Positions 55,336 through 63,838 of a stretch of DNA of 64,000 nt are shown piece after piece. Numbering within the stretch: the first letter of the stretch is position 1; every line of letters begins with the position of its first letter. The stretch is from Ancylobacter rudongensis (lineage in GTDB: Bacteria; Pseudomonadota; Alphaproteobacteria; Rhizobiales; Xanthobacteraceae): assembly GCF_900100155.1 (NCBI RefSeq), contig NZ_FMTP01000002.1:372001-436000 (forward strand), given 5' to 3'. The notes under the pieces are model-generated. The model was not told the DNA's origin. It saw only the letters and a list, made by a program, of their open reading frames with translations, and searched no databases. The position numbers were made by a program, and so were the translations under genes.

Positions 55336-56115
55336 TCAGGCCTCGCTGCGTATCTGCCGGCGCAGCTCATCGGCCAGCGGATGCAGCCGGTCCGGGGCCA
55401 CCGCTCCGACGAGGCTGTAGCCGAGGCCATCATCGGCCCAGGCGAAGCCGTTGAGTGCGCCGTCGGTGTGAGGCGACATTGGCAGGGCCGGATCGGCCTT
55501 CATCGGGCGCGCCAGCATCACGAGCCGCGTTCCGCGATCGTCGTCAAACATGAACAGCGCGGCAGGGCCGTGCTCGGTCGGCACTACGCGCCCGCCCATC
55601 AGCCGATAGCCCGCCGCCGTCAGGTCCGGAATGCCGATCGGACGGCCAATGCGCTTGGCGGTCCAGGCCGCGAGCACGTCGCGATCGCTGGCACGGATCT
55701 CGACCGGCCGCACCTGGTCCGGCACATAGGTCGCATAGCTCGCGGCCGCCTCGCGGGCGAGCGCCTGGACACCTTCGGAGGTCGGAGGACTCAGGTCGCG
55801 CAGCGACCAGCCGCCGGCGGCGCCCACCGACAGCAGCAGCACCGCCGCCGCGGCCATCGCCCAGCGTGGCGCCTGCCGTGGCAGGCGGCGCTCCTCGATC
55901 ATGCGCGAGAGGTCGAGCTCCGTCGGCACCGGCTCGTCCATGACAGGCGCGAAGGCGTCGCGCAGCATGTCGCGCTGCTCGCCATAGACCGCGATGCGTC
56001 GGCCAATATGCGGATGGGCGTCGAGATAGGCGCTCACCTCGGCGTGGCGTTCGGGCGTGAGCGTGCCGTCGACAAAGCCGTTCAGGTCGTCTTCGGTGAT
56101 CGGAAGAGGGTTCAT
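55336..56115 (-). CDS. Anti-sigma factor (membrane-anchored)
   Basis: A 259-residue protein. Residues 1-80 form the cytoplasmic sigma-binding part (ITEDDLNGFVDGTLTPERHAEVSAYLDAHP), without the zinc-binding HxxxCxxC, one transmembrane helix lies at 85-103 (WAMAAAAVLLLSVGAAGG) and residues 105-259 are periplasmic. Its ATG overlaps the sigma factor stop by 4 bases, which is the standard sigma/anti-sigma coupling; it is expected to hold the sigma factor inactive until a signal arrives. Confidence 0.9.
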   Translation of the reverse strand: MNPLPITEDDLNGFVDGTLTPERHAEVSAYLDAHPHIGRRIAVYGEQRDMLRDAFAPVMDEPVPTELDLSRMIEERRLPRQAPRWAMAAAAVLLLSVGAAGGWSLRDLSPPTSEGVQALAREAAASYATYVPDQVRPVEIRASDRDVLAAWTAKRIGRPIGIPDLTAAGYRLMGGRVVPTEHGPAALFMFDDDRGTRLVMLARPMKADPALPMSPHTDGALNGFAWADDGLGYSLVGAVAPDRLHPLADELRRQIRSEA

Positions 56116-56642
56116 TTCACGCTCCGGAGATGGGGCGACGGACGGGCTGCGCGCGGGTCGGCGGACATCAGCCTGGCAAGGCGTTCGCGGGCACGCGACA
56201 GACGCGACATGACCGTGCCGATCGGCACGCCCAGCACCTGCGCCGCGTCGGCATAGGAGAGTTCCTCGACCGTGACCAGCAGAAGCACGGTCCGCTGCTC
56301 ATCCGGCAGCTGCGCCAGCGCGTTGACGAGGTCCTGGCAGCGCAGCCCGTCCTCCTGTCGGGCCGCCGAGGCGAAGCTCGCCGGATCGGCGTCGTCGAGC
56401 CCGATATGGATCGGGCGCTGCGTCGACCGGCGCAGCCGCGTCATCGCGAGATTGTGCAGGATGGTGAAGATCCAGGCCCGCGGGTCCTCGCCCGGCCGCC
56501 GCTGATGCCAGCGGCTGATGGCGCGCTCCAGACAATCCTGCACCAGATCGTCCGCCGCCGTCCGCTCGCGCATCAGCGCCCGCGCATAGCGCCGCAATGC
56601 CGGAATCAGCGGCTCGATGAGGCGCACCATCTCGTGGTTCAC
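56112..56642 (-). CDS. ECF-type RNA polymerase sigma factor
   Basis: A 176-residue extracytoplasmic-function sigma factor. Region 2 is LIPALRRYARALMRERTAADDLVQDCLERAI, with the -10 recognition helix WIFTILHNLAMTRLR; region 4 is ALAQLPDEQRTVLLLVTVEELSYADAAQVLGVPIGTVMSRLSRARERL. The start is GTG 56642, with AGGAGA 5 bases upstream, rather than ATG 56678. It is followed by its anti-sigma gene. Its likely target promoters are the three GGAATAA-N15-GTCY sites found at 58726, 58842 and 63813. Confidence 0.94.
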   Translation of the reverse strand: MNHEMVRLIEPLIPALRRYARALMRERTAADDLVQDCLERAISRWHQRRPGEDPRAWIFTILHNLAMTRLRRSTQRPIHIGLDDADPASFASAARQEDGLRCQDLVNALAQLPDEQRTVLLLVTVEELSYADAAQVLGVPIGTVMSRLSRARERLARLMSADPRAARPSPHLRSVK

Positions 56643-56708
56643 GGTGTCTCCTTTCGAGGAGAGGCGCGCCTCCCCCATCAGCGACTGTCCTGGCGCAGGC
56701 GGGGCGCG

Positions 56709-58166
56709 TCAATCCAGCGTCTGGCGCTGGACGACGGCGCCGGGCTGGGCGACCGTGCCCTGCGTGATGACGAGATAGCGGCGCTCGGCCTTGGCCGCGT
56801 TCTGCACGATCTGGCGGATGGGTCCGGCGGCGTTGACGATCGCCGAGCCGGCGGGATTGGACATGAAGGCCGAGAGCGGTTCGATCGCGCCCGTGCCGTC
56901 GGGCTGGCTGGCCAGCGCCAGTACATGCGGCTTCTTCGGCGCGAGGCCGGTTACTGACGCCTGCAGGACCTGGATCAGACCCTGGTCGAACAGCGTGATG
57001 CTGGTCGGGGGCGTGTCGGCGGCCTTGCCGTCCGTGGTCAGGCTGAGATGGGCCGCCTGCCCGGCGACGCCGAGCGGCTGGAGGTTCTGCGTGCCCTCGC
57101 CCTCCGGCACGGCGCCGGGCACGTAGTTGACCGCCTGCGGCGCCTGGCCGATCGGGATGGTCGCCACCACCGTGTTGGTCAGCGTGTCGATGGCCGCGAG
57201 AGCATCGGCGTTTTCCAGCCCGACATAGACGCGCGAGCCATCACCCGACGGCCAGAGGCCATGCGGCAGCTTGCCGACAGGAATGGTCGCCACCGGCGTG
57301 AAGTCGTCGGTGCGGAACACCTTGACCTCGTTGAGCCCGCCCACCGTCACATAGGCGAAGCTACCCTTGGCATTGCGGGCGAAGTTGACATGGTTGGTGA
57401 TCGGGCCGGTCTCTAGCGTCTTGATGACCTCGAACGGCGGCTGCGCGTTGAACACCTGCACCTTGCCGATATCCTTCAGCGTGAACCAGACCTGCTTGCC
57501 GTCCGGCGTCGCCGCGATGTTGGGACAGAACGGGCTTTCCTGCTTCACACGGCCGACAATCCTATGGTCGGCGACCGAGATGACCACGGTCTCGGGCATG
57601 AAGGAGGAGCAGACATAGCCGTATTTCCCGTCGGGCGAGAAGATCTGCATGCCCGGGCCGTTCGGCACCTTGATGCGCGTCTTCTCCTCATAGGTCGCGC
57701 TGTCCAGCACGGCGATGTAGTCCTCGCCGCGCACCGTCACCCAGACCTCCTTGCCATCAGGCGTGAAGAACGCCTCGTGCGGCGAGCGGCCGATATAGGT
57801 CGTGTGCTTCACGGCATTGGTCGACGTGTCGATGAAGGTGACAGCGTTCGAGCCGATTGACACCACGGCGAGCGTCTTACGATCCGGCGAGAAGCCCATG
57901 CCGTGCACCAGCACCTGCCCCTTGTAGAGCGGGCTGAAGTTCGTCGGCTGCGGCTCACCCAGCCGGATGATGCCGACCAGCTTGTTGGTCGCGGGATCGG
58001 TGACGGAGATGGTGTTGGAGAACTGCTCGGCGGCATAGACGCGGTCGCGGCTGCTCAGCGGAATGTCCGGGGCGGAGGCGGCGAACGGCGCCTGTCCGGC
58101 GAAGGCGGGCACCGCACAGGCGAGCAGGACGCTGGCGAGCACGCCGGTGAGGACGGATGTGTTCAT
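56709..58166 (-). CDS. Secreted YncE-like beta-propeller protein
   Basis: A 485-residue exported protein with signal peptide MNTSVLTGVLASVLLACAVPAFA. The following repeats (PATNKLVGIIRLGEPQPTNF, STNAVKHTTYIGRSPHEAFF, GKEVWVTVRGEDYIAVLDS, and others up to about 330) are seven-bladed YVTN/YncE-type propeller units. A C-terminal extension (350-485) is less repetitive. Function unknown; such proteins are often periplasmic, sometimes tied to metal or redox stress. ATG 58166 has AGGAA 7 bases upstream. It lies 10 bases after the DUF305 stop and 67 bases upstream of the sigma gene start. Confidence 0.88.
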   Translation of the reverse strand: MNTSVLTGVLASVLLACAVPAFAGQAPFAASAPDIPLSSRDRVYAAEQFSNTISVTDPATNKLVGIIRLGEPQPTNFSPLYKGQVLVHGMGFSPDRKTLAVVSIGSNAVTFIDTSTNAVKHTTYIGRSPHEAFFTPDGKEVWVTVRGEDYIAVLDSATYEEKTRIKVPNGPGMQIFSPDGKYGYVCSSFMPETVVISVADHRIVGRVKQESPFCPNIAATPDGKQVWFTLKDIGKVQVFNAQPPFEVIKTLETGPITNHVNFARNAKGSFAYVTVGGLNEVKVFRTDDFTPVATIPVGKLPHGLWPSGDGSRVYVGLENADALAAIDTLTNTVVATIPIGQAPQAVNYVPGAVPEGEGTQNLQPLGVAGQAAHLSLTTDGKAADTPPTSITLFDQGLIQVLQASVTGLAPKKPHVLALASQPDGTGAIEPLSAFMSNPAGSAIVNAAGPIRQIVQNAAKAERRYLVITQGTVAQPGAVVQRQTLD

Positions 58167-58176
58167 GGGACGGTTC

Positions 58177-58686
58177 CTAATTCGCCGGGGCCGACAGGGC
58201 CGGCATCGCCATGGTGCTGGCGGGCATCGGGCGGAGCGACAGGGTGCCTGGGGGCATGGCGGAAGGGTCATGGGCGGCGCCGGTCCCGGGCAGGGTTGGC
58301 GCCGGCGCGGAAGGCGGCAGGGGCTGGCCGAGCGCAAGCCGCATCGCGGCGATCTCCTGCTGCTGCTCGATGACGATCTCCTGCGCGAGGCGGCGCAGCT
58401 GCGGGTTCTGGCCGTAGCGCAGATAGGCGACCGCCATGTCGATGGCGCCCTGATGGTGCGGGATCATCATCGCCGTGAAGTCGGCGTCGATGTCGCCGGT
58501 CGGCGTCACCTCCATGTCCGCCATCATCTTGTCCATGGCGGCGGCGTTCTCGGCGAGAAACGGCGATTCGGCGCGGGTTGTGGAAGCCGTGTCGGCGCCA
58601 TGGCTGTGGTCGCCCGCCGCGACCGCGCTCCCAGTCAGGCAGAGCGCGAGCAGCACGCCGACACGAGACAGGTGTCGTTGTCGCAT
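58177..58686 (-). CDS. Secreted DUF305 protein
   Basis: A 169-residue protein with signal peptide MRQRHLSRVGVLLALCLTGSAVAA. The DUF305 hallmark is FTAMMIPHHQGAIDMAVAYL (residues 80-99) after DKMMADMEV; the paired His residues suggest metal binding. The C-terminal 35 residues are Pro/Met-rich. AAGGAG lies 8 bases before ATG 58686. It is the first gene of a unit with the beta-propeller gene and is preceded by a GGAATAA-N15-GTCC site. Confidence 0.9.
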   Translation of the reverse strand: MRQRHLSRVGVLLALCLTGSAVAAGDHSHGADTASTTRAESPFLAENAAAMDKMMADMEVTPTGDIDADFTAMMIPHHQGAIDMAVAYLRYGQNPQLRRLAQEIVIEQQQEIAAMRLALGQPLPPSAPAPTLPGTGAAHDPSAMPPGTLSLRPMPASTMAMPALSAPAN

Positions 58687-58725
58687 GGACTTTTCTCCTT
58701 CGGGCGATGACGCCTTCGGGAGGTT

Positions 58726-58751
58726 GGACTCGCAGCCGGCGCGATTATTCC
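58726..58751 (-). promoter_or_regulatory. Candidate ECF promoter of the DUF305/beta-propeller unit
   Basis: On the minus strand GGAATAA (58751-58745), 15 bases, then GTCC (58729-58726), continuing AACC. The DUF305 ATG is 40 bases downstream. The same spaced elements occur at two other starts in this block. An AAAAT segment lies 12 bases upstream of GGAATAA. Confidence 0.7.
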
Positions 58752-58841
58752 GCCCCGGCGCGAATTTTCTCCGGCCTTCGCCTGACCCGCCCGACGCCCA
58801 CCCCGTGCGACGCGAAAATCGGAACGCACGCCCCGTCAGGC

Positions 58842-58867
58842 GGAATAAAGCGCCGCGACGAGAGTCT
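58842..58867 (+). promoter_or_regulatory. Candidate ECF promoter of the NTF2-like gene
   Basis: GGAATAA (58842-58848), 15 bases, then GTCT (58864-58867). It lies 33 bases upstream of ATG 58900. Spacing is the same as in the other two sites, the fourth -10 base being T rather than C. Confidence 0.7.
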
Positions 58868-58899
58868 CCCGATGCAGGCCACATTGGAGATTCAGGCAC

Positions 58900-59325
58900 A
58901 TGCGCCTTTCAACCCTCGCCGCGACGTTCGTCCTTATCGCCGCTTCCGGCTCGGCCGCGCTGGCGGGTTCTGCCGAAGACCTCGCCAGGTGGCGCATCGC
59001 CGCCATTGCCGGCGGCGACCTCGCTGTTGTGTCGGCGGCCTACGGCCCCGGCGCGACGCTGCACTGGGTCGGCGGCCCGCTCGACGGCACCTATAGCCAG
59101 CCGGGCGCGATCAGGGAGATCTGGTCGAAATTCTTCGCCGCCCAGGGCGCCCAGACGGCGACCATCGCCATGGCGGTAGCGGCGGCCAATCCCAAGGGTG
59201 GCACGGTCACGGCCGATGTCACCTTCGCCGGCAAGAACACGGTCAAGGTGCGCTACGTGCTGCTCTATCGCGGCGACAGGCTGGTCGACGAAATCTGGCA
59301 GGTCAATCCGACCGCGACTTACTGA
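58900..59325 (+). CDS. Secreted NTF2-like (SnoaL-type) protein
   Basis: A 141-residue protein with signal peptide MRLSTLAATFVLIAASGSAALA. The mature part is an NTF2-like cone fold: ARWRIAAIAGGDLAVVSAAYGPGATLHWVGG, IREIWSKFFAAQGA and a beta sheet ending RLVDEIWQVNPTATY. Such proteins bind small ligands or act as lyases or isomerases; this one is periplasmic. It lies divergent from the DUF305 gene with an ECF-like promoter facing each. Confidence 0.8.
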   Translation: MRLSTLAATFVLIAASGSAALAGSAEDLARWRIAAIAGGDLAVVSAAYGPGATLHWVGGPLDGTYSQPGAIREIWSKFFAAQGAQTATIAMAVAAANPKGGTVTADVTFAGKNTVKVRYVLLYRGDRLVDEIWQVNPTATY

Positions 59326-59622
59326 ACGGACCGATCGCGCGGGGGGGCGTTCACGTCCCCCCAACGGACGGGCGAGCTGGCGCGGCACAGGTCCACGCCG
59401 GACGGCCGACACGTCCACCCCCATGCCGGCGTGAGCCGACCGGGCCGCTGCCCGGGCGATCGGCTGCGCACGGCTGGCGCGGACACGAGCGGGGCCCCGA
59501 CGCCACGGCAACGAGGCCCTGCTGTCTCGCGTCGCGGTTCGCCGCCGCGATTTAGCATAAAGGCTATATTTGATTAATTTGATAAAATTGATACCACGTC
59601 GCCATTCAGAGGAGTTTGCGAC
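59326..59622. other. Intergenic region upstream of the GMC oxidoreductase gene
   Basis: About 300 bases. The left part is GC-rich with no gene; the last 65 bases are AT-rich (ATATTTGATTAATTTGATAA) and end with GAGGAG before ATG 59623, so they probably hold the promoter. A similar ATTTGATTAAAA string occurs at 62660-62672. No GGAATAA-N15-GTCY site is present here. Confidence 0.5.
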
Positions 59623-61239
59623 ATGAGCGAGATCGACAAGGACGACGCGCCGGACTTCGCCAGGCGGGTCGCCGAGAACCAGAACCGGCTGCGGGAGCGG
59701 CCTCCGGCGCAGTACAATTTCATCGTCTGCGGCGCCGGGTCTTCCGGTTCGGTCGTGGCGAGGCGCCTGGCCGAGAACCCCGATGTCGATGTGCTCCTCG
59801 TCGAGGCGGGGGGCGATGACGAAGCCGACACGGTGCTCGACCCCTCGCAATGGCCGCTCAATCTCGGCAGCGCGCGTGACTGGGGCTTTCAGGCGACGCC
59901 CAATCCACACCTCGACGGCCGGACCCTGTCGATGTCGATGGGCAAGGGCCTGGGCGGCGGGTCCAGCATCAATGTGATGGTGTGGGCGCGCGGGCACCGC
60001 AGCGACTGGGACTTCTTTGCCAAGGAGAGCGGCGATCCCGCCTGGGGCTACCCGGCGGTGCTCGACATCTATCGTCGGATCGAGAACTGGCAGGGCACGC
60101 CCGATCCGCACTATCGCGGCACAGCGGGCCCGGTGTGGGTGCAGCCGCCGCGCGATCCCAGCCCGGTGGCGCTCGCCCTGCTCGATGCCGCGACCGAAAT
60201 CGGCATCCCGCGCTTCGATCATCCCAATGGCGCGATGATGGAAGGCGCTGGAGGCGTCGCCCTCTCCGACATGCTGGTGCGGGATGGGCGACGCCACTCC
60301 CTTTTCCGCGCCTATGCGCGGCCCTGGATGGACCGGCCCAACCTGACGGTGCTCACCGGAACGACGGTGCGCCGGGTGATCTTCGAGGGCCGGCGCGCCG
60401 TTGGGATCGACGTGGTTCGCGACGGAGAGGTCTCGCGCATTTGCGCCAGTGCGGAAGTGGTCCTGTCGCTCGGCGCCATCCATACGCCGAAAGTCCTTAT
60501 GTATTCGGGCATTGGCGACGCCTCGGAACTTGGCCGGCATGGCATCCCCGTCCGCCAGCATCTACCCGGCGTCGGCGCGAACCTGCAGGATCACACGGCC
60601 TTCTGCTGCATCTGGGAGTATCGCGACGCTCTCGCGCCGCGCAATAATGGCAGCGAAGCGAAACTGTACTGGAAGACGCGTCCCGAGCTTGAATCGCCCG
60701 ACCTGCTGTTCTGCCAGGCCGAGTTTCCGGTGCCGAGCGAACGGACGGCGGCACGGGGCGTGCCCGCGCAGGGGTGGACGATGTTCGCCGGCCTGGCGCG
60801 GCCAAGCAGCCGTGGCCGGCTTCGCCTCACCGGCGCGGATCCGCTCTCGGCGATCGAGATCGACGCGAACATGCTGTCGGACCCCGCCGATATGGAGACG
60901 GCGCTCGCCTGCATCGAGCTCTGCCGCGAGCTTGGCAATGCCAGGGCCTTCCAGCCTCTGGTGAAGGGCGAGGCGCTGCCGGGCCCGCTCAAGGGCGAAG
61001 CGATGAAGCAGTTCGTGCGCGAGTCCGCCGTCACCTACTGGCATCAGAGCTGCACGGCGAAGATGGGGCGTGACGCGATGTCGGTCGTGGACGCCTCTCT
61101 CAATGTCTATGGGGTCGAGGGTCTGCGGATCGCCGATGCCTCGATCATGCCGCGCGTCACCACCGGAAACACGCAGGCCCCCTGTGCCGTCATCGGCGAG
61201 CGTGCCGCCGAGCTGATCCGCCGGACCTACGACCTCTGA
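59623..61239 (+). CDS. GMC family FAD-dependent oxidoreductase
   Basis: A 538-residue flavoprotein of the glucose-methanol-choline family. The FAD-binding GAGSSGSVVA is at 37-46, the second signature SLGAIHTPKVLMYSGIG is near 285-301, and the C-terminal active site has His in YWHQSCTAKMG and Asn in TGNTQAPCAVIGERAAE. It oxidises an alcohol such as choline or a related compound; substrate unknown. No signal peptide, so it is cytoplasmic. GAGGAG precedes the ATG. Confidence 0.93.
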   Translation: MSEIDKDDAPDFARRVAENQNRLRERPPAQYNFIVCGAGSSGSVVARRLAENPDVDVLLVEAGGDDEADTVLDPSQWPLNLGSARDWGFQATPNPHLDGRTLSMSMGKGLGGGSSINVMVWARGHRSDWDFFAKESGDPAWGYPAVLDIYRRIENWQGTPDPHYRGTAGPVWVQPPRDPSPVALALLDAATEIGIPRFDHPNGAMMEGAGGVALSDMLVRDGRRHSLFRAYARPWMDRPNLTVLTGTTVRRVIFEGRRAVGIDVVRDGEVSRICASAEVVLSLGAIHTPKVLMYSGIGDASELGRHGIPVRQHLPGVGANLQDHTAFCCIWEYRDALAPRNNGSEAKLYWKTRPELESPDLLFCQAEFPVPSERTAARGVPAQGWTMFAGLARPSSRGRLRLTGADPLSAIEIDANMLSDPADMETALACIELCRELGNARAFQPLVKGEALPGPLKGEAMKQFVRESAVTYWHQSCTAKMGRDAMSVVDASLNVYGVEGLRIADASIMPRVTTGNTQAPCAVIGERAAELIRRTYDL

Positions 61240-61378
61240 CGTCCTCGCGCCGGGGCCGTCCATGAGGGGCGGGCCGGCGCCGGGGCTGCGGGTCAGGAAG
61301 GCATCGCGCGCGTCCCTCCACCTCCGTCGGGTGAAGCCGGCCTTGGGAGGTTTCAAGCCCTGCGGGGTGATGGAAAGC

Positions 61379-62554
61379 TCATACCCGATCCGGAAGACGC
61401 GCAGGCCCGGCGGGCGCGGCCGGGGCGCTGTGGCCTTGGCCAGCTGTGTGCCGCTCCGCCTTGCCGAGCGCGTTCCGCAGCTGCCGCTCGATGGCGCGCA
61501 GCCGCACCTCGTCCGATGCCAGCGCCGCAAGCGCCATCAGGGCCCGCCGCTCGCCGTCGTCCAGCGTGCGCGGCCTCCGGTCGATGATGCACAGCGACCC
61601 CACGGTGAAGCCCTCACCGTCATGGACGGGGGCGCCGGCGTAGAAGCGGAAGCCGAGATCACCCGCGACGGCCGGATTGGCGGCGAAGCGCGGATCGCTC
61701 GGCAGGTTCTCGACCGAGAACACCGCCTTCTGCAGGATCGTATGATTGCAGAACGCCCAGCTTCGCGGGGTTTCCGGCGCATCAACGCCGATGCGCGACT
61801 TGAACCATTGCCGTGTGGGAGTGAGCAGGGTCAGCAGCGCGATCGGCGCGTCGAGCGTGCGGGAGGCCAGCCAGGTCAGGCGGTCGAACGCTTCCTCGGG
61901 AAGCGTGTCCAACAGCCCCGAGCGCTCGAGTGCCACCAGCCTCTGGCTCTCATTGAGCGCGATTGGAAACAGCGCCTCGGCGGGCGGCGGGGTCGGCGTG
62001 CCGGTGTCGATCAGCGACACGCGTATCGCGGCGGCTGCCTGTTCGGCGGTCTCGACAGGCACGACGCGGCCGGGCAGATCGCCACTGGCGATCGTGCCTG
62101 CGGCCACGACCGCGAGAATCCGGCTGTGACCCAACGACGGGTTGGCAGAGAGGCTGTGCAGCAGCCTCACCCGCTCGGCATCGGGCGGCGCGAGATCGAC
62201 GATGATGGCGTGCGGCCGGACGGAGCCGATGGCAAACAGCGCCCGGTGGACATTGTCGAAGGCTTCCACCGTGCATTCGGGAATGCCGGCCAACAGGCGA
62301 TCATAGTGGGCAAGCCGTTCGGACGAAGCGACAAGGATGACGGTGGCGGACGGGAGCGGCGCGCCGGGCGCGCCCGGCGCGGGCCGCTCGATCAGTGCCA
62401 TGACGTCCGCGCGGTAGACCCGGCGGTGCCCGCCCGGTGTCTTCCACGACGGCACCGAGCCACCCTCGATCAGCAGCTGGGCGGTGCGGACCGACACGCC
62501 GAGTATTCTGGCGGTCTCGGCCGTGGTCAGGATGTCCTTGTCGGTCTTTCCCAT
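61379..62554 (-). CDS. Regulator with excisionase/MerR-type HTH, pseudo-receiver and GAF domains
   Basis: A 391-residue protein. Residues 5-58 are a DNA-binding domain (LTTAETARILGVSVRTAQLLIEGGSVPSWKTPGGHRRVYRADV) of the excisionase/MerR type. Residues 70-180 look like a response-regulator receiver (ATVILVASSERL, then IIVDLAPPD), but the first acidic pair is lost, so classical phosphorylation is doubtful. Residues 205-365 are a GAF domain (RLVALERSGLLDTLPEEAFDRLTWLASRTLDAPIALLTLL, then GSLCIIDRRPRTL). ATG 62554 is chosen; the longer form is basic and less plausible. Confidence 0.85.
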   Translation of the reverse strand: MGKTDKDILTTAETARILGVSVRTAQLLIEGGSVPSWKTPGGHRRVYRADVMALIERPAPGAPGAPLPSATVILVASSERLAHYDRLLAGIPECTVEAFDNVHRALFAIGSVRPHAIIVDLAPPDAERVRLLHSLSANPSLGHSRILAVVAAGTIASGDLPGRVVPVETAEQAAAAIRVSLIDTGTPTPPPAEALFPIALNESQRLVALERSGLLDTLPEEAFDRLTWLASRTLDAPIALLTLLTPTRQWFKSRIGVDAPETPRSWAFCNHTILQKAVFSVENLPSDPRFAANPAVAGDLGFRFYAGAPVHDGEGFTVGSLCIIDRRPRTLDDGERRALMALAALASDEVRLRAIERQLRNALGKAERHTAGQGHSAPAAPAGPARLPDRV

Positions 62555-62712
62555 CGCCTTCCCCACACGCGGAGATCGCGCACCACCCGGCAAAGGCACC
62601 GGGAGGGCGCGGATCCCGCACTATAGGGCGCGCGGCGGCAAAATGGGAGAGTTGCTGGATTTGATTAAAACGATAGAAGGCGCAACCAGTGCGTGGCGTC
62701 AAGGAAGCGGCC

Positions 62713-62761
62713 CCGCCTTGCCGGGCCAGCGCCCCCTGAGGGTGCCGGCCCGGCAAGGCGG
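62713..62761 (-). terminator. 15-bp inverted repeat downstream of the hydrolase gene
   Basis: CCGCCTTGCCGGGCC (62713-62727) pairs exactly with GGCCCGGCAAGGCGG (62747-62761). It begins 14 bases after the hydrolase stop on the minus strand. It lacks a T-run, so it may work with Rho or as an mRNA stabiliser. Confidence 0.6.
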
Positions 62762-62774
62762 CCGCATCGACCGC

Positions 62775-63566
62775 TCACGGCCGCTTGGAAACCGTCCGCG
62801 CCGCCTTGTCGATGGTGTCGGCGACGACCTTGGGCTGGGTCATGAAGAGCGCGTGGCTGGCGGAGACCGTGGTGATGTCGGCACCGATCCGCTTGGCCAT
62901 GTGCAGCAGCATCGCCTGGTCGAACGCCTTGTCCTCCGTCGCGATCACCGCCCAGCTCGGCTTGGAGCGCCAGGCCGCGTGCGTCAGCTTGGTGCCGAAC
63001 GCGGACAGGTTGATCGGCACCTGCGAGTCCCGCATGAAGGCGACGTCCTGATCGCTGACGTCATGGGCGAAGCCGGCCTTGAATTTCTCGCGGTCGACAA
63101 AGGCGAAGCCGTCCGCCGCCTTGTCGAGCACGAACTCCGTCGCCGGCGCAAAGCCTTCATATTGCTGGCCGGTCGTTTCTCCCGCGTCGGGCGACAGCGC
63201 GGAGACATAGACGAGCCCTGCCACCTTCGGAGTGTCGCCGGCCTCGGTAATGACCGTGCCGCCCCAGGAGTGCCCGACGAGAATGGCCGGGCCGCTCTGC
63301 CGTTCCAGCACGCGCGTGGTGGCCGCGACATCGTCTGCGAGCGAGGTCAGCGGGTTCTGGACGATGGTGACGCGATAACCGCGCTGGGTCAGCTCGTCAT
63401 AGACGCCGCGCCAGCCGGACCCGTCGGCGAACGCCCCGTGCACAAGCACGACGTTCTTGACCGCCTGGCTCTGCGGGATGGGGTCGGCCGCGCGCGCCGG
63501 GTCCATGCCGAGGACAGCGGCGGCGGCCGCGGTGGCGGCAAGGATGTTTCTTGTCTTGGTGTTCAT
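62775..63566 (-). CDS. Secreted alpha/beta hydrolase
   Basis: A 263-residue exported hydrolase. Residues 1-27 are a signal peptide (MNTKTRNILAATAAAAAVLG, ARAA). The oxyanion hole is HGAFADGSGW (43-52), the nucleophile S100 lies in VGHSWGGT, and the catalytic His is in VSASHALFM near the C-terminus. This set matches the alpha/beta hydrolase group often linked with lactonase or esterase activity. AAGGA precedes ATG 63566. A GGAATAA-N15-GTCC site lies about 250 bases upstream. Confidence 0.9.
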   Translation of the reverse strand: MNTKTRNILAATAAAAAVLGMDPARAADPIPQSQAVKNVVLVHGAFADGSGWRGVYDELTQRGYRVTIVQNPLTSLADDVAATTRVLERQSGPAILVGHSWGGTVITEAGDTPKVAGLVYVSALSPDAGETTGQQYEGFAPATEFVLDKAADGFAFVDREKFKAGFAHDVSDQDVAFMRDSQVPINLSAFGTKLTHAAWRSKPSWAVIATEDKAFDQAMLLHMAKRIGADITTVSASHALFMTQPKVVADTIDKAARTVSKRP

Positions 63567-63812
63567 GAGGCTTTTCCTTTTCTTGCCCGATACCATTATC
63601 GGCAATTTCTGCTTGATCCGCTGTTGTGACGGCCGCGCGCGGCTGCAATCGCGAAAACGACTTCCGCGGTTACGTGGCCATTACTTGGTGAGGTGGATGT
63701 CGAGGCCGGATCGGCGCTGCCGGCGGCGGTGGTCAGCCGATCAATCGCGCCGCGCGTGTTTCGCGGTGTCGCATGGCGTTGTCCTTCGGTGGCATGGTGG
63801 CGTCTGAAGGAT

Positions 63813-63838
63813 GGACTCCGTGCCGCGCCGCTTATTCC
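63813..63838 (-). promoter_or_regulatory. Candidate ECF promoter of the alpha/beta hydrolase gene
   Basis: On the minus strand GGAATAA (63838-63832), 15 bases, then GTCC (63816-63813), continuing ATCC. An AAAAT segment is again 12 bases upstream. The start of the hydrolase gene is about 250 bases downstream, giving a long leader. Confidence 0.6.

Follow-up and report, generated by a model that had tools for sequence, protein, structure and literature searches.

A probable RpoE1-type (ECF26) sigma factor module in Ancylobacter rudongensis with putative divergent promoters and a shifted upstream A/T tract

Which genes are controlled by an extracytoplasmic function (ECF) sigma factor, and by what signal, is the question raised by a locus of Ancylobacter rudongensis in which a sigma/anti-sigma gene pair is accompanied by three sites of the form GGAATAA-N15-GTCY. 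The locus lies in the window analysed here (64,000 nucleotides (nt) of contig NZ_FMTP01000002.1, from a genome of 4,498,808 bases in 18 contigs). An earlier note made from the DNA letters alone, called the original prediction below, had described a local ECF regulon. That observation is confirmed, and its interpretation is right in outline and partly supported: the core of the block belongs to a published kind of system. The block very probably encodes a sigma/anti-sigma module of the RpoE1 type (ECF26) that serves a few local genes, with oxidised sulfur species as the likely signal, feedback through promoter P1 and a divergent promoter P2. The promoter sequence, its conservation, the gene order and the orthology are direct observations of this analysis. 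The sites and the genes beside P1 and P2 are:

58726..58751, minus strand: P1, predicted ECF26-type promoter GGAATAA-N15-GTCC of the DUF305-propeller-sigma-anti-sigma operon (exact match; top of the genome scan with a promoter model)
58842..58867, plus strand: P2, predicted ECF26-type promoter GGAATAA-N15-GTCT of the NTF2-like gene (exact match)
63813..63838, minus strand: P3, predicted ECF26-type promoter GGAATAA-N15-GTCC, probably copied from the P1 region and situated before a hydrolase gene (exact match)
58177..58686, minus strand: DUF305 protein (PF03713, 65.9 bits)
56709..58166, minus strand: YVTN-type beta-propeller protein (TIGR02276, 94.2 bits, over the cut-off; PF21783)
56112..56678, minus strand: ECF sigma factor assigned to the RpoE1 type within group ECF26 (PF04542, PF08281)
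55336..56115, minus strand: anti-sigma factor without cysteine, likely made up of a single membrane helix (by eye) plus a periplasmic domain
58900..59325, plus strand: NTF2-like (SnoaL_2) protein whose start resembles a signal peptide (by eye; PF12680, 28.0 bits, cut-off 27)

P1 is followed on the minus strand by the DUF305, propeller, ECF sigma and anti-sigma genes in that order, with gaps of 10 nt (DUF305-propeller) and 30 nt (propeller-sigma) and an overlap of 4 nt between sigma and anti-sigma, while P2 is followed on the plus strand by the NTF2-like gene and then a GMC oxidoreductase gene. From the last base of GTCY to the ATG the distance is 39 nt for DUF305, 32 nt for the NTF2-like gene and 246 nt for the hydrolase gene. 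The three sites are exact and lie where they had been placed, at 58751-58726 (minus), 58842-58867 (plus) and 63838-63813 (minus). Their endings had been given as GTCC, GTCC and GTCT, with the last two swapped: they are GTCC (minus, 58726), GTCT (plus, 58867) and GTCC (minus, 63813). Export of the DUF305, propeller, NTF2-like and hydrolase proteins was judged by eye from their N-termini. The DUF305 protein was considered as a CopM copper chaperone, but its score against NCBIfam NF049983 (86.1 bits) is under the cut-off of 90, and it is filed as DUF305 only. The anti-sigma factor, which is 45-98% identical to the 50 relatives aligned, matches no Pfam family, all its matches to NCBIfam anti-sigma models are under the cut-off, and a sequence search of solved structures returned nothing convincing (best E 0.036).

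A counterpart of this block has been studied in Starkeya novella, where Snov_0990 encodes a DUF305 protein, Snov_0991 a YVTN propeller, Snov_0992 the sigma factor SnRpoE1 and Snov_0993 its anti-sigma factor. According to the text of PMC6527743, the DUF305 promoter is activated by SnRpoE1 in reporter assays, the operon is induced on tetrathionate, and expression of the propeller gene is high under that condition. The genome taken as S. novella (G155) falls in the same genus in our genome collection; its sigma factor is 83% and its NTF2-like protein 77% identical to those of the window, and its locus has the same gene order, a P1 site with the same N15 spacer and also a P2 site. The DUF305-propeller gap is 8 or 11 nt depending on the start codon chosen, and PMC6527743 gives 12. 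Given the shared order, the promoter sites and the high identity, the window module is taken as the SnRpoE1 ortholog; judged from sequence, the operon is orthologous to Snov_0990-0993, and the core system is thus one already known. Unlike in A. rudongensis, the part of the S. novella locus that was read holds no copy corresponding to P3, and the closest hydrolase match of that genome, with about 50% identity, lies at a distance of 0.5 Mb. An anonymous locus is now tied to a tested sulfur-stress circuit, and the present analysis adds to it an apparent NTF2-like target, a largely conserved displacement of the A/T tract and the probably duplicated P3.

The assignment to group ECF26 agrees with the published consensus (-35 GGAATA, -10 GT; Rhodius 2013 and others, as quoted in PMC6180224), which the sites carry. 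The sigma factor is 45% identical (116 bits) to the region of Sinorhizobium meliloti RpoE6 (ECF26), located in an unannotated record via its published promoter strings, versus 39% (93 bits) to its own EcfG. In ECF26 a membrane anti-sigma of COG5662 type is expected directly downstream; here the protein of the overlapping downstream gene matches the region behind RpoE6 on pSymA at 32% over 81 residues. There is also a likeness to S. meliloti RpoE1 (SMc01418-rpoE1-ecfR1, ECF26), whose sigma operon has a GGAATAA...GTCT promoter, a downstream anti-sigma gene and, as first gene, one for a hypothetical signal-peptide protein (PMC3511301, PMC6180224). The rpoE1 operon promoter, GGAATAA-N16-GTCT, differs from those of the window in a spacer one base longer (PMC6180224). 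The stimuli of S. meliloti RpoE1 are thiosulfate and taurine, which are regarded as sources of sulfite, and the accounts of RpoE1 in the text of PMC3511301 and PMC6180224 mention neither DUF305 nor a propeller.

Conservation was followed in the best 80 of at least 520 confirmed sigma matches, genus members included. An anti-sigma gene lies no more than 200 nt downstream of the sigma gene in all 80, and the order DUF305-propeller-sigma-anti-sigma recurs in 57; three have only the propeller and 20 have neither gene beside sigma. GGAATA-N15..17-GTC is found no more than 700 nt upstream of the first operon gene in 76/80. In 1,473,181 bases of the relatives' loci GGAATA-N16-GTC occurs 110 times, versus 11, 1, 12, 16 and 13 times for spacers of 13, 14, 15, 17 and 18, 4 and 7 times for spacers of 6 and 26, 18 and 3 times with the -10 words CAG and CTG, and 4 times for the reversed six-base form. 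Within 13 genus loci the -35 and GTC columns of P1 and P2 are invariant (P1 of L149 ends GTCG), while most spacer and flank columns vary (invariant spacer columns: 6/15 at P2, 3/15 at P1; 1/34 downstream of P2). The wide conservation of DUF305 and propeller with this sigma factor points to a common periplasmic function, for which no assignment was found in the literature searched. The same promoter form stands before other genes in relatives: a molybdopterin-oxidoreductase gene (L063, longer spacer), catalase-like genes (L118; L121 and L123, grouped by shared words; L116, by eye), an MsrB gene (L055, no A/T tract) and a PCuAC copper-chaperone gene (L124, short tract). Two loci, L079 and L125, are labelled Frankia and Mycobacterium; they look alphaproteobacterial and are probably mislabelled.

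One feature, an A/T tract lying 12-20 nt before the -35, does not figure in the ECF26 consensus as quoted in PMC6180224. In the window it takes two positions:

58763..58768, minus strand: A/T tract of P1, with its centre 14 nt ahead of the -35
58815..58819, plus strand: A/T tract of P2, with its centre 24-25 nt ahead of the -35, roughly a helix turn more than at P1

AAAAT indeed ends 12, 22 and 12 nt before GGAATAA at P1, P2 and P3 (58764-58768, 58815-58819 and 63851-63855), as had been noticed. Alignment A1 comprises the window P1 together with 61 of 62 representatives (L124:8225-8280 left out). Among 53 non-redundant operon promoters, chosen by GGAATA-N16-GTC so that those columns are fixed by selection, the strongest signal outside the boxes and their flanks is an A/T tract at -20 to -12, with A in 31, 36, 38 and 36 promoters at -19 to -16. 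A run of at least five A/T occurs in 67 of 88 operon and divergent promoters of relatives, versus 3.8% of random 13-mers from the same loci. The shift by one helix turn suspected from the window alone is borne out and largely conserved: the six bases richest in A/T have their centre at -13 to -16 in 13/13 DUF305 promoters of the genus and at -23 to -28 in 11/13 NTF2 promoters (among these, L151 is tied with -15 and only four of the six bases are A/T in L156); the other two have the tract at -15/-16 (L149) and -12 (L152). The tract is probably a contact for the alpha subunit of RNA polymerase; synthetic A/T-rich UP elements were placed before GC-rich ECF promoters for alpha contact by Rhodius 2013 (PMC3817407). 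Two promoters, one sigma factor and two tract spacings would make a small natural system in which to study the tuning of ECF promoters by upstream A/T tracts in bacteria of high GC content.

P2 would link the NTF2-like gene to the sigma factor, and the two genes are distributed together. A sigma factor of at least 77% identity is encoded in 12 of 30 genus genomes (the line was drawn afterwards, at a gap down to 66%), and the NTF2-like gene is present in exactly those 12; three further genomes have only more distant sigma factors (51-64%) and no NTF2-like gene. The co-occurrence gives a Fisher p of 1.2e-8, ignoring shared descent and linkage; since the genes are neighbours, one event moves both. 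Both divergent sites are kept in all 13 NTF2 loci (12 genomes, window included, G150 counted twice). Outside the genus, Xanthobacter loci L053 and L054 have the NTF2-like gene and a divergent site whose spacer has one more base (for L054 the protein matches only in part). In Microvirga (L050) the gene and its divergent site face the sigma gene itself. The words NTF2 and divergent are absent from the main text of PMC6527743, and no account of the NTF2-like gene as a target was found in the literature on ECF26, on DUF305 with a sigma factor or on SnRpoE1, most subscription papers being outside the search. A candidate divergent target is thereby added, adjoining a promoter already studied in S. 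novella. We put forward, tentatively and as somewhat doubtful, that with one sigma factor the alpha contacts one helix turn apart would give two fixed output ratios from one signal, and that in Ancylobacter, Xanthobacter and Microvirga the exported NTF2-like protein may regularly accompany the RpoE1/DUF305/propeller sulfur-stress module, a partnership so far undescribed.

Several observations accompany these loci. G150 has two sigma/NTF2 loci, and in L043 (G062:C18:44140-44688), one of the 12, the sigma frame is interrupted by one in-frame TAA. At the S. novella locus (L178 444-2920) the NTF2-like gene is adjoined, in convergent orientation, by genes for a TauE/SafE sulfite exporter and for a fusion of a BLH-phosphatase with a pyridine-nucleotide oxidoreductase. 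In Methylobacterium (L072, L092, L096, L098, L099, L101, L106, L114, L115) the divergent target facing the sigma gene encodes a small secreted-looking protein of 89-104 amino acids; the L072 copy, the only one scanned, matches no Pfam family.

The signal had been called unknown, with envelope stress or a metal/oxidant system suggested. Since the S. novella operon is induced on tetrathionate and the DUF305 promoter is activated by the sigma factor there, the signal is not wholly unknown; envelope stress in general finds no specific support. We infer that oxidised sulfur species are the signal in A. rudongensis. The molybdopterin-oxidoreductase, catalase-like, MsrB and PCuAC genes behind this promoter form in relatives and the TauE exporter near NTF2 are indirect evidence that fits oxidised sulfur or oxidant stress in the periplasm. 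Cysteine is absent from the anti-sigma factor and from 61 of its 80 relatives (the other 19 have one to three), so thiol redox sensing by it is judged unlikely. Nearly invariant residues of its C-terminal part include methionines 173, 205 and 213 (alignment A2, 50 of 79 anti-sigma segments); sensing might run through the oxidation of methionine or the binding of a metal, which is offered only as a suggestion. The hypochlorous acid-responsive Brucella system was considered as an analogue and set aside, as it belongs to ECF16 and has a different promoter (text of PMC8315932). A sulfite-oxidase target was likewise rejected: the genome has three PF00174 genes, none near the six places listed by the model scan. 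One of them lies in a sox-type cluster (L131, C16:140000-149500) with cytochrome, SoxB- and SoxYZ-like open reading frames (ORFs; by eye); a one-mismatch site at C16:143013 falls within an ORF of this cluster and was dropped.

In the proposed mechanism, the sigma factor would be held by the membrane anti-sigma factor in the resting state. Its release would follow a signal in the periplasm, for which the likeliest candidate is a reactive oxidised sulfur species related to tetrathionate or sulfite, or the damage done by it. Sigma-RNA polymerase would then start at P1 and, by reading through into the sigma gene, yield DUF305, propeller, more sigma and more anti-sigma, a positive feedback loop that carries its own brake. 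From the divergent P2 it would yield the NTF2-like protein. The A/T tract before each -35 would probably be touched by the alpha subunit, about one helix turn further out at P2 than at P1, and P3, as a copy of P1, may additionally feed the hydrolase gene. A local ECF regulon around the sigma/anti-sigma pair with a shared promoter, and with feedback possible via the DUF305 operon, is supported, as the original prediction had it; no exact site lies directly before the sigma gene, so feedback would have to pass through P1.

Several points weigh against this reading. In S. novella the 270 bp directly upstream of the sigma gene are silent in a reporter and sigma mRNA is about 10x that of its anti-sigma factor (text of PMC6527743), so the feedback depends on presumed read-through. 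The signal is taken over from an ortholog whose sigma factor is 83% identical, and in a tree with 24 of the 80 relatives the join to RpoE6 is supported at 84/56 only. The expected operon site is absent in 4/80 relatives (L060, at a contig edge, L087, L118 and L121; all but L087 carry sites at other places in the locus), and some sites of other species (L055, L063, L124) have no A/T tract or a longer spacer. P2 reached only E 0.25 in the genome scan, behind two coding matches (E 0.13 and 0.16), which we attribute to its shifted tract. Finally, the genome encodes a second ECF26-like sigma/anti-sigma pair (C17:450812; L132 3999-5511), which could share the sites.

That the three sites are a chance similarity within GC-rich intergenic DNA is an explanation to which we give practically no weight. 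It can point to the one-mismatch form, which is no commoner in the genome than a reversed control (76 matches versus 97), so only the exact form is informative, and to shuffles of the window, of which 6/100 reach at least three matches with one mismatch allowed (mean 0.68 over 100 shuffles; the real three have zero mismatches). The original prediction was to fall if the pattern proved equally common in coding DNA, which holds for the loose form and fails for the exact one. Exact GGAATAA-N15-GTC occurs five times genome-wide versus once for the reversed control, and three of the five are P1, P2 and P3, all inside 5.1 kb; the other two are antisense within ORFs of 637 codons (asparagine-synthase-like) and 802 codons (penicillin-binding-protein-like, both by eye). 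The looser GGAATA with a spacer of 15-17 gives 56 versus 20. With a promoter model applied to 150 of 834 first-look candidates, P1, a member of the training set, is the best match (E 1.3e-5) and P3, outside it, the second best (E 1.2e-4); no further strong copy appeared, in line with the original prediction, which had noticed none. The clustering, the conservation across relatives and, for P1, the published reporter assay of the S. novella ortholog, which already refutes it there, speak against chance. Service of P1-P3, wholly or partly, by the second sigma factor, or cross-talk between both, is unlikely, though less remote. The second sigma factor is 40-46% identical, and cross-recognition among ECF26 sigma factors is documented in S. 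meliloti and S. novella (texts of PMC6180224 and PMC6527743). Its contig, C17, has no exact GGAATAA-N15-GTC match. Against service by the second sigma factor stand the presence of the sites at the locus of the window sigma in 76/80 relatives and the restriction of the NTF2-like gene with its promoter to the 12 genus genomes that have close orthologs of that sigma.

The third of the claimed targets, the hydrolase gene, is doubtful, and its site is the weaker one. P3 and the gene concerned are separated by a leader that holds a short ORF:

62775..63566, minus strand: alpha/beta hydrolase, possible target of P3 (PF12697, 83.8 bits)
63733..63774, minus strand: 13-codon ORF behind P3, possible remnant of a duplicated DUF305 5' end (aligns with the DUF305 start)

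Aligned with the P1 region from the tract to the start codon, the P3 region scores 58, compared with no more than 31 in 500 mononucleotide shuffles. When DUF305 promoters of other genera are aligned, the scores are 18-32 with P3 (six distant genera; Xanthobacter 48) and 15-39 with P1 (Xanthobacter 58). P3 appears to be a real promoter that arose by duplication of the P1 region, and it may control the hydrolase gene. The opposing view, that P3 is left over from the copying of P1, its DUF305 start having decayed, and that the hydrolase has its own promoter near its start codon, is in our estimate evenly balanced with its negation. It draws on that alignment, on the 246-nt leader with an ORF that starts like DUF305 and is longer in a sister genome, and on the unlinked hydrolase orthologs (67-77% identical), where GGAATA-N15..17-GTC is found in 0/7 loci (L172 has a GGAATG match 1.3 kb away). 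Of six unlinked orthologs inspected upstream, five (L164-L168) carry TATCGCGATAA-type repeats near the start (inverted-repeat test for L167 only), and in L164 (2336-2893) a MarR-like ORF, identified by eye, and the hydrolase gene are divergent. In L162, the linked ortholog that has no P3, the sequence close to the start codon is preserved. On the other side, P3 is intact, retains its A/T tract and is kept in 4/5 linked orthologs (92-100% identical, window included), and the window hydrolase leader has no inverted repeat of at least 7 nt near the start codon, so no operator is claimed there. In a Rhodospirillaceae metagenome-assembled genome (L056) and in Sphingomonas (L058), a divergent ECF26-type promoter precedes a hydrolase of 67-72% identity, after which comes a GMC oxidoreductase; these hydrolase-side sites were in the training set of the promoter model. 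Hydrolases only about 50% identical also lie just downstream of the NTF2-like gene in L169 (G150) and L176 (G171).

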